A stretch of 42,782 nt of DNA, taken from the NCBI GenBank assembly GCA_009377575.1, contig WHTU01000025.1, positions 1-42,782 on the forward strand, given 5' to 3'. Positions within the stretch are counted from its first letter, which is position 1. The number at the start of each line of letters is the position of its first letter. The translations under genes and the position numbers were made by a program. The notes beneath the pieces were generated by a model. The model did no database searches, was not told where the DNA came from, and worked only from the letters and a program-made list of their open reading frames with translations. Below are positions 14,786-42,782 of the stretch, piece by piece. Origin of the DNA: Nitrososphaeraceae archaeon (GTDB lineage Archaea; Thermoproteota; Nitrososphaeria; Nitrososphaerales; Nitrososphaeraceae).

Positions 14786-15430
14786 ATGTCCACTTTTCCC
14801 ATGCTCGCGGAATTACAAAGAGTCTTGTCAAAGATGGTCATATCCACGGATCTAGCTCCTATCAATTCAATCAGGCAAGTATGTGGTGTTGACGTGTCAT
14901 ATCATATGAATATGGCGTTCTCTTCCGTGGTTAACATGGATCGAGATTCCTTTGATATTATCGAAATAAAGGAGTCTCGATCTTCCATTGAATTTCCGTA
15001 CATTTCAGGATTTTTCATGCTAAGGGAGGCAGGCCCAATCTTTACAGTTCTTAAGAAACTAAAATCCTCCTTCGATGTGCTTATTGTAAACGGCCACGGC
15101 GTTCTTCATCCTCGACGAATGGGTCTTGCGTCATTTATAGGTCTCTTAGTAGACAAGCCGACAATTGGAATAGCCAAACGACTACTGTGTGGGATAGAAG
15201 ATGTTGATAACTACGTATCCATTGATCATGATATTTGTGGGAAGAAAATAATCAGAAAGGAACACAGTCACGTTTACGTTAGTGTTGGGCACAAGATAAG
15301 TTTGGAAACTTCCATAAATCTTGTCACAGAACTCTTCAGAGAAGAAGGCAGATTTCCGGAACCACTTATGACTGCTGACCTTATGTCGAAGAAAGCCAGA
15401 CATTTTTACATGTCACAGTGGAAAAATTAA
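14786..15430 (+). CDS. nfi: endonuclease V (deaminated-base repair), atypical active site
   Basis: 214 residues, full length for the family. Endonuclease V nicks DNA (or RNA) one base 3' of inosine. Landmarks: GVDVSY (Asp36), PYISGF then Glu81, the GHGVLHPRRMGLAS block (His108), DKPTIGIAKRLL (Lys131), YVSVGHKISL and a C-terminal PEP. The Asp that normally opens DGHG is Asn102 here, and REGP is read as REAGP. Since that Asp is a metal ligand, activity may be reduced or altered. TATA box CTAAAATATAATTC (14738-14751) supports the ATG. Confidence 0.9.
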   Translation: MSTFPMLAELQRVLSKMVISTDLAPINSIRQVCGVDVSYHMNMAFSSVVNMDRDSFDIIEIKESRSSIEFPYISGFFMLREAGPIFTVLKKLKSSFDVLIVNGHGVLHPRRMGLASFIGLLVDKPTIGIAKRLLCGIEDVDNYVSIDHDICGKKIIRKEHSHVYVSVGHKISLETSINLVTELFREEGRFPEPLMTADLMSKKARHFYMSQWKN

Positions 15431-15478
15431 GCCCTTCCAGAAAGATTAATTTGGGCTTTTTCTATTATAAATAAAGGA

Positions 15479-15769
15479 TTGTCTTTCTTCGGGAACACAT
15501 CGGGTGACAGCGTAGACAAAACCAAGTATGAGCATTTGACGATGAGTATTAAGCAGACCGTTCTGGAAAAGGCTCACCATCGATGTCAGACCTGCAATAT
15601 CAGATTTCACGGCAGCACGCAGACTTTTTTTGAACATATCAACGGCTCCAGGAAGGATAACAGGCCTGGTAATTTGCGTGCTTTGTGTCCCAAGTGTTTC
15701 AAGAAGGTCGAAAAAAAGGAGAACAAGAAAGGCCTCTTAGACAGCCTATTTGGTAAACTGAAATCATAG
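15479..15769 (+). CDS. HNH/treble-clef-like small protein
   Basis: Up to 96 residues. CQTCNIRF ... FEHINGSRKDNRPGNLRALCPKC is the pattern of an HNH-type treble clef (CxxC, H-I-N-G, N-R, LCPKC), followed by a Lys-rich helix. It probably binds zinc and nucleic acid; nuclease activity is uncertain because only one central His is clear. The frame opens with TTG 15479, yet the TATA box TATTATAAATA (15463-15474) predicts transcription from about 15494. The ATG at 15542, giving 75 residues with the whole zinc domain, is therefore a serious alternative. Its stop overlaps the convergent 48-residue gene. Confidence 0.68.
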   Translation: MSFFGNTSGDSVDKTKYEHLTMSIKQTVLEKAHHRCQTCNIRFHGSTQTFFEHINGSRKDNRPGNLRALCPKCFKKVEKKENKKGLLDSLFGKLKS

Positions 15770-41743: not shown

Positions 41744-42634
41744 TCATGTTATTTGCGTTCTGGCTATTGTTGATCTAATTAATTTTATTGCGTCTGCAAG
41801 TATCATGTTCCTAATAATACAAACATTGGTAACATTAAAATCAGAAGTTTTATTTGGATCATTTAAAGCTATTCCACCTACGAAGATAGTCAAAGAAGGG
41901 AATTTAGTTCTAATTTTTCTGATTAAATTCCTAGTTATTTGAATATGATCTGTTAACGTTATAGAGATCAGAATTGCATCAGGGAATATATCACTCAATG
42001 AATTAATTATCGAGTCTGCAGGTAATGAAGGGGAGGCATTATAAACTTTATACCCCTTAGATAACAAAACAGATTCTATAATATTGCATGCTAGGTTATG
42101 TCGTTCTCCATTTGGAGTACAGATAAAGATCCTGCCCTTATTACGACGAGTAGTAACACGAATTAATTGCCTTTCGTCAATTATCTTTATCAATGCGTTA
42201 GCTGTATTAACGCATACATGTTCTGTTGCGATATCAAGTTTTCCTTCTGCCCATTACTGACCCATATCGTACATTACTGGTTTTAGTAGATTGTCATAAA
42301 ATTGAATCATCCCGAAAAGATTGGAATATTTATCATAAATCTTGATTAAACCTTGCAGGTCACCTGCAGAAAGCATCCTAAATAAATCTTGCCCTAATTT
42401 TTTGGTAAGAGAATTATTCTTCTTGCCATTGACAGTGCTATAGCGGGTTATAAATGAAATTATGGCTGGATCATCACGGTATTCTACAGGAATCATTTCT
42501 TGTGTAACTCGAGACACTTTCCCCAGGTACTTTACTGTCTCCTGTCTTGAGGTCCTATTCGTATGATCCCATATACTTTTCACCATGTATGCATAATCAA
42601 TGCCTTTTACTGTTTTTCTCCGTATGTATACCAA
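41744..42634 (-). pseudogene. cobalamin-binding protein interrupted by in-frame TAA
   Basis: From TTG 42634 (TATA box TTTTAAATAGC at 42660-42670) the frame runs 126 codons, stops at TAA (42256-42254), and continues in the same frame for 169 codons to 41744. Residues 1-75 form a unit (RRKTVKGIDYAYMVKS ... SRQETVKYLGK) like the N-terminus of some transposases. Residues 80-150 are a four-helix B12-binding bundle whose motif reads MGQ-stop-WAEGKLDIATEH. The last 135 residues are a Rossmann-like B12-binding domain with GERHNLACNII in place of ExHxxG, and IFVGGIAL. The intact protein would be about 296 residues. The second half alone can only start at TTG 42193. Confidence 0.75.
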
Positions 42635-42782
42635 CTAATAAGAATTATGAAGTAGATTGCTATTTAAAATAATGGGTAAATAAAAATCATAGTGCTAAAT
42701 CCAATAGCTAGGGATAAGCCAACCCTCTATTCAATCCAATTCTTAAAAATAATGTACATTAAATCACCCCGATACGTGCCTT

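Follow-up and report, generated by a model that had tools for sequence, protein, structure and literature searches.

A gene for a putative CarH-like regulator in a Nitrososphaeraceae archaeon, probably inactivated by a single recent nonsense mutation

Near the end of a contig from a Nitrososphaeraceae archaeon, the reading frame for a cobalamin-binding protein is interrupted by a stop codon. Is the gene broken, is the stop an error, or is it somehow bypassed? And what does the protein do where it is intact? To answer these questions, we analyzed a window of 42,782 nucleotides (the whole stretch of DNA), which comes from a 3.89 Mb genome assembly in 380 contigs whose relatives are Nitrososphaeraceae. 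We believe that it belongs to a family of CarH-like, cobalamin-binding regulators from ammonia-oxidizing archaea, and that this copy was probably inactivated by one recent nonsense change.

The frame lies on the minus strand and runs from a TTG start at 42634 through 296 codons to a final stop at 41744-41746. The only in-frame interruption is a TAA at codon 127, which reads TTA on the plus strand; 126 codons of the same frame precede it and 169 codons follow. The translation around the stop is LLKPVMYDMGQ, then the stop, then WAEGKLDIATEHV. If the stop is read through, then Pfam's B12-binding_2 domain (1.9e-7) spans it and the B12-binding domain (8.6e-11) follows (Table 1). The stop is the codon directly before the tryptophan (W128) of the Wx9EH motif. 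Nowhere else in the window does one frame have two consecutive open stretches with lengths of 126 codons or more and 169 codons or more, and none of 200 Markov-shuffled windows had such a pair. A sequence-only reading had described two open halves (126 and 169 codons) of one gene, with a TAA inside a motif of the B12 domain and with the stop standing in for exactly one residue. All of this holds on the minus strand: relatives align end to end, with no gap at the stop column. The same reading counted two B12 domains. Pfam does find both, but they are the two halves of one cobalamin module of the CarH/MetH type.

Table 1. Features of the interrupted gene and of its upstream region, in window coordinates.
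Feature	Positions	Strand	Basis or remark
Whole interrupted gene	41744..42634	-	ORF reading and alignment to relatives
In-frame TAA, codon 127	42254..42256	-	CAA (Gln) in the closest relative
5' part, 126 codons: the N-terminal domain, then the first helices of the four-helix bundle	42257..42634	-	
3' part, 169 codons: remaining helix bundle and B12-binding Rossmann domain	41747..42253	-	
N-terminal domain, residues 1-66	42437..42634	-	Predicted three-stranded beta sheet and helix
B12-binding_2 (four-helix bundle), residues 82-151	42182..42391	-	Pfam
Wx9EH motif, W128...E138 H139, right after the stop	42218..42253	-	Motif definition from PMC9304148
B12-binding Rossmann domain, residues 169-256; ExH 177-179, SxT 224-226, GG 253-254	41867..42130	-	
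Candidate operator TTAGCACTA	42690..42698	-	Motif common to homologous upstream regions
TATA-like TTTAAA	42663..42668	-	29 nt downstream from the motif and ~34 nt ahead of the TTG start
Final 44 bases of the contig	42739..42782	.	Homology to the closest relative stops at 42738

We compared the gene to its homologs in two sets of genomes. Among 70 genomes of Nitrososphaeraceae, about 25 have a full-length, uninterrupted homolog. A scan of named genomes gave 107 relatives, of which we kept 80, all from ammonia-oxidizing archaea (including Nitrosopumilus, Nitrosarchaeum, Nitrosopelagicus, Nitrosotenuis, Nitrosocosmicus, and Nitrosopolaris); 79 of these are complete from the first codon and one begins at a contig end. 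The position of the stop is read through in all 80 homologs and in the ~25 full-length relatives from the family. Seven different residues occupy it among the 80 homologs (Leu in 31, Asp in 27, Glu in 11, Asn in 4, His in 4, Gln in 2, and Met in 1), so the position is variable, and G125, W128, E138, H139, G176, E177, and H179 are invariant. None of the aligned proteins (the ~25 family relatives and the 80 homologs) ends at MGQ, so the frame is an interrupted gene, as the sequence-only reading had it, rather than a shorter gene with its natural end there.

In the closest relative (L004/L054, 83-84% identity), the codons CAG CAA TGG stand where the interrupted gene has CAG TAA TGG, so a single C-to-T transition from CAA to TAA explains the stop. 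This relative is colinear with positions 42738-40810 of the window (~1.97 kb, 78% DNA identity), and the gene has no other disruption. Both halves of the gene seem to have been under selection: relative to the closest relative, dN/dS is 0.13 before the stop and 0.21 after it, while other pairs within the family give 0.08-0.37 before the stop position and 0.13-0.26 after it. Because both halves keep the purifying selection that is typical of the family, we think that the stop is recent. In sum, intact homologs have a sense codon at the site and constraint is kept elsewhere in the gene, as would be expected for a pseudogene made by a recent nonsense mutation.

The changes on the gene's own branch give a similar picture. 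We polarized 11 nonsynonymous and 17 synonymous changes on this branch, and 15 and 18 on the sister branch. Using approximate inputs (site numbers of N = 680 and S = 205, with 0.17 as the background ratio), the probability of 11 or fewer nonsynonymous changes is 0.034 if 30% of the branch was neutral and 0.003 if 50% was. We regard a neutral phase that covers 30% or more of the branch as unlikely. Given the constraint on this branch, either the gene was functional during most of the period after the split, or else the stop is an error and the gene still works.

Under the second of these options, the TAA arose in sequencing or assembly, or it is an allele from a minority strain that entered the consensus, and the gene is intact in most cells. 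The stop is a lone substitution (the rest of the frame is intact and normally constrained), and it lies ~530 bases from the contig end in a fragmented assembly (380 contigs), so an error in the consensus or a minority allele is conceivable. We consider it unlikely, though: the ~1.97 kb that can be compared with the relative shows the gene without further disruption, and true decay is common in this family, with broken copies or remnants in at least five other genomes. The copy in genome G069 has a frameshift and two TAA codons; the one in G064 is split by ~1 kb; G023, which is a single-contig genome, has a second copy that is shortened to ~72 residues; G001, from the same genus, has a 59-residue remnant; and G028 has a remnant with six stops. 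Since decay recurs in the family, a lesion here is not unusual, and we rank a real lesion above a sequencing error. By locus, the broken or partial copies are at L051, L052, L040, L041, and L042 (a frameshift, an interruption of ~1 kb, remnants of 59 and 72 residues, and an internal fragment).

Two other explanations for the stop are both very improbable. Programmed readthrough or recoding of the TAA would yield a full-length protein, and it would fit with the constraint that persists 3' of the stop and with the promoter, which is apparently intact and near-leaderless. But recency accounts equally well for the constraint, none of the aligned relatives has a stop there, and TAA is the commonest ordinary stop among the ORFs of the window (11 of 27). 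Also, selenocysteine is encoded by TGA and pyrrolysine by TAG, and TAA is neither. We set aside a reassigned genetic code as well. Two separate proteins, with the second restarted at an internal codon, are equally hard to credit: each half has an open frame (126 and 169 codons) and there is a TTG at codon 21 past the stop, but the stop sits within one folded unit (the four-helix bundle), a restart at that TTG would drop Wx9EH, we saw no Shine-Dalgarno-like sequence ahead of the downstream starts, and such a split is absent from all of the aligned relatives. So, of the three readings that were offered from the sequence alone, a fresh nonsense mutation has the strongest support, a sequencing error retains a small share of the probability, and readthrough is unsupported. 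Taken by itself, the stop is most likely an ordinary recent pseudogene.

What, then, is the intact protein? Wx9EH, which is said to separate CarH proteins that sense light via adenosylcobalamin (AdoCbl) from CarA (PMC9304148), is present in the interrupted gene (W128, E138, H139) and in 80 of 80 homologs. The full signature for AdoCbl-sensing CarH is Wx9EH plus D/ExHx2G/P x41 SxT/V x22-27 GG (PMC9304148). Here, the Rossmann part of the signature is ExHx2A-x41-SxT-x26-GG, which fits the CarH pattern except that Gly is replaced by Ala. The remark that ExH is not followed by this Gly is thus true of this copy, yet 64 of the 80 homologs do have Gly, and 12 have Ala. Also, many CarH proteins have His after the tryptophan of the motif (PMC9304148), while the archaeal proteins have Ala, Ser, Glu, or Gln.

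Comparisons to solved structures point to light-responsive proteins. In a profile search, photocobilins (SasPcob, 8j2w, and AbPcob, 8j2y) came first (1e-20), then CtMerR from Chloracidobacterium thermophilum (8jbs); methionine synthases and corrinoid proteins followed, and CarH was at 1e-10 to 1e-11. The best match for the single sequence was CtMerR (2e-12). We also compared a predicted structure for the nearest intact relative (pLDDT 87.9) to known folds. The 50 best folds were photocobilin, CtMerR, and CarH, with 8.9e-12 for photocobilins (the best), 1.5e-11 for CtMerR, and E ~ 1e-10 over ~215 residues for CarH from Thermus thermophilus (5c8d). NCBIfam gave only sub-threshold matches, the best of them to CarH; the equivalogs for corrinoid methyl carriers (MtaC, MtbC, MtgC, and MetH) scored at most 45 bits, as compared to cut-offs of 215-1497 (110 for one).

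Although the archaeal family shares the cobalamin module (four-helix bundle and Rossmann domain, Wx9EH, and ExH-SxT-GG) with CarH/class I LitR, and in both groups the module lies C-terminal to a small N-terminal domain and there are candidate sites at the gene's own promoter, it lacks the MerR winged-helix domain of CarH and has a different, beta-rich domain of 66 residues in its place. Pfam found no MerR domain in this protein or in 37 homologs, so the protein is not a CarH by membership. CtMerR, which has a light-responsive cobalamin module, differs from the archaeal family in the same way, as it has a MerR DNA-binding domain. Photocobilins have the same Trp/Glu-His and E/DxH motifs (PMC10979010), but the archaeal protein has no bilin-binding, globin-like domain: it ends with the Rossmann domain and has another domain at its N terminus. 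By analogy, the family may work like CarH, and a role in sensing light is suggested on the same grounds.

The N-terminal domain (residues 1-66) is confidently predicted to form a three-stranded sheet and a helix (pLDDT 91.5). It is highly conserved, with R5, K7, K10, Y14, Y16, W22, Q31, K35, Y36, L37, and G38 invariant. It has no Pfam family, and a fold search found no solved fold below E = 0.3. We presume that it is a DNA-binding or interaction domain. It had been called transposase-like from the sequence, which is at most a hint. In a tblastn search of plasmids, two records with an IS1634-family transposase matched at ~35% identity over 59 residues, with E = 10, which is not significant, and the archaeal protein lacks the catalytic region of those transposases. 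Pfam, the plasmid search, and the fold search do not establish a transposase origin.

The genes near the 80 homologs also suggest a link to light. Within these loci, we found a short-chain dehydrogenase with a membrane tail in 58, transcription factor B (TFB) in 36, an FAD oxidoreductase similar to CrtI or amine oxidases in 31, a small SRPBCC-like protein in 30 (which we assigned by eye; Pfam gives a weak match to a DUF), a photolyase in 9, and a MEDS-domain protein in 9. Like CarH/class I LitR, the family thus has a genomic link with light-damage genes, through the dehydrogenase, the oxidoreductase, and the photolyase. Across the 70 genomes of the family, 21 have both an intact regulator and the dehydrogenase, 33 have neither, and just 4 and 12 have only one of them, so the two genes occur together more often than expected (P = 4e-6, Fisher exact test, uncorrected for phylogeny). 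In Pseudomonas, the light-inducible pmlR1/phrB cluster has a photolyase, a short-chain dehydrogenase, and an FAD-dependent oxidoreductase near a regulator of the LitR/CarH family (PMC9758184). The enzymes are of the same kinds as those around the archaeal family. The Pseudomonas regulator differs: it is a class II LitR, which keeps the four-helix part only and is not thought to bind B12.

Some details of these neighborhoods are worth recording. TFB recurs near the regulator (for example, L130:7235-8146) and is possibly a dedicated TFB for a light response. At 9-10 loci, mostly of the Nitrosopelagicus type, a protein with a MEDS domain and a winged-helix protein lie directly before the regulator (L083:3001-3552 and L083:3635-3910); MEDS is among the domains that have been reported as fused to light-responsive cobalamin modules (PMC11796333). 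The dehydrogenase has broken copies as well, including a truncated one beside the photolyase of G003. This is a third copy of the dehydrogenase (108 residues; L138:1307-1633, minus strand, contig C191), and it is divergent from the photolyase gene, with the promoter motif that is described below ~55 bp before its start.

Together, the exact Wx9EH, the top structural matches to CarH and photocobilins, the neighborhood, and the promoter motif support the suggestion, first made from the sequence alone, of a light- or B12-sensing regulator, and we infer that the intact proteins are transcription regulators that respond to light or B12. Instead, the family might sense the state of cobalamin or redox without being photoreceptors, or it might carry methyl groups on a corrinoid and not be a regulator at all. 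Methionine synthases and corrinoid methyl-transfer proteins do match the module, and a light response is not readable from sequence. We find this alternative somewhat doubtful, given that Wx9EH is invariant, that structures of CarH and photocobilins are the top matches, and that the photolyase, dehydrogenase, and FAD oxidoreductase neighbors resemble the Pseudomonas cluster.

There is a candidate binding site upstream of the regulator genes. The sequence TTAGCACT occurs in 55 of 79 upstream regions (1.5 expected). Counting close variants, we found the motif in 68 of 79 regions. In most of them it starts 56 nt ahead of the start codon and, if a TATA-like box can be recognized, 28 nt ahead of the box. 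More broadly, a TTAGCACTA box at about -56/-57 from the start codon is common to the regulator and several of its neighbors (loci L054-L133). The same phasing is seen for the FAD oxidoreductase (28/34), TFB (15/37), a protein of 119 residues that begins with MPHIV (21/27), and a secreted PDWVKNNAGWWADG protein (25/28). In six other families of neighbors, the motif was found upstream of 0 or 1 of 7-24 genes, and in two more it was at ~10%; as a background, 3.3% of 130-bp segments have it. The dehydrogenase of the nearest relatives has the motif upstream, too.

We then considered entire genomes. A short pattern for the motif was too loose, with 8 matches in this genome as compared to 6 for a reversed control, so we relied on a strict pattern of motif plus TATA box. 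Across 91 genomes of the order, this pattern has 29 matches and its reversed control has 8. Of the genomes that we sampled from the family, 8 of 8 with the regulator have the pattern, and 0 of 11 without it do. Sites in the regulator's own promoter are trivially tied to the regulator gene, so we left them out, and the pattern was still present in 6 of 8 versus 0 of 11 genomes (P = 0.001). We infer that the regulator binds the TTAGCACTA motif. There is about an even chance, in our judgment, that ammonia-oxidizing archaea have an undescribed class of cobalamin-dependent photoreceptors. These would combine a CarH-type light-sensing module with a new N-terminal DNA-binding domain, would bind TTAGCACTA boxes that precede the TATA box by ~28 nt, and would control a light-response regulon (the regulator itself, the CrtI-like oxidoreductase, the short-chain dehydrogenase, a dedicated TFB, and photolyase). 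The window would then capture the decay of this system in one lineage from soil.

In this genome, the strict pattern occurs only at the regulator's own promoter. Neither the dehydrogenase partner nor the photolyase was found in the genome, which is 99% complete, while the relative G003 has both. However, the homology at the contig's end stops ~10 bp short of where the relative's short-chain dehydrogenase gene ends. The expected place of the partner is exactly past the end of the contig, and a gap may explain why it is missing. Only 7 of 70 genomes in the family have a photolyase, which makes the lack of one weak evidence, and we rejected its loss as a strong indicator. Still, given that neither enzyme was found and that the strict motif is confined to the promoter of the regulator, this gene might already have been redundant when it broke. 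We propose that a dehydrogenase/photolyase target module would have been lost first in this lineage, which would have left the regulator free to break. A C-to-T change, presumably real in the population, would then have turned CAA into TAA in the codon before the tryptophan of Wx9EH, and the product of 126 residues, lacking the whole cobalamin site, would not work. Intact proteins would bind adenosylcobalamin and would switch their target promoters according to light or B12 state, via the TTAGCACTA sites.

Archaeal ammonia oxidation is photoinhibited in nature. Our search of open-access journal papers found no description of a CarH-like protein in ammonia-oxidizing archaea and no light sensor for these organisms. 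The intact family supplies candidates for a sensor, an operator, and a set of targets. It is found in genera that include cultured strains, such as Nitrosotenuis chungbukensis MY2, so the idea of a light sensor is directly testable. If it is true, then this would be an archaeal example of photoregulation through B12 in which the DNA-binding domain is not of the MerR type. The broken copy sets up a natural contrast between sister species that have the system and those that lack it. The part worth following looks like the archaeal CarH-like family, with its new N-terminal domain and candidate operator; the broken copy itself is ordinary.

Elsewhere in the window, at 14786-15766 on the plus strand, an ORF that looks by eye like endonuclease V (214 amino acids) is followed by another 112 open codons in the same frame. 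For shuffled windows, the expected number of pairs of open stretches in the same frame, each with 100 codons or more, is 0.07 per window.
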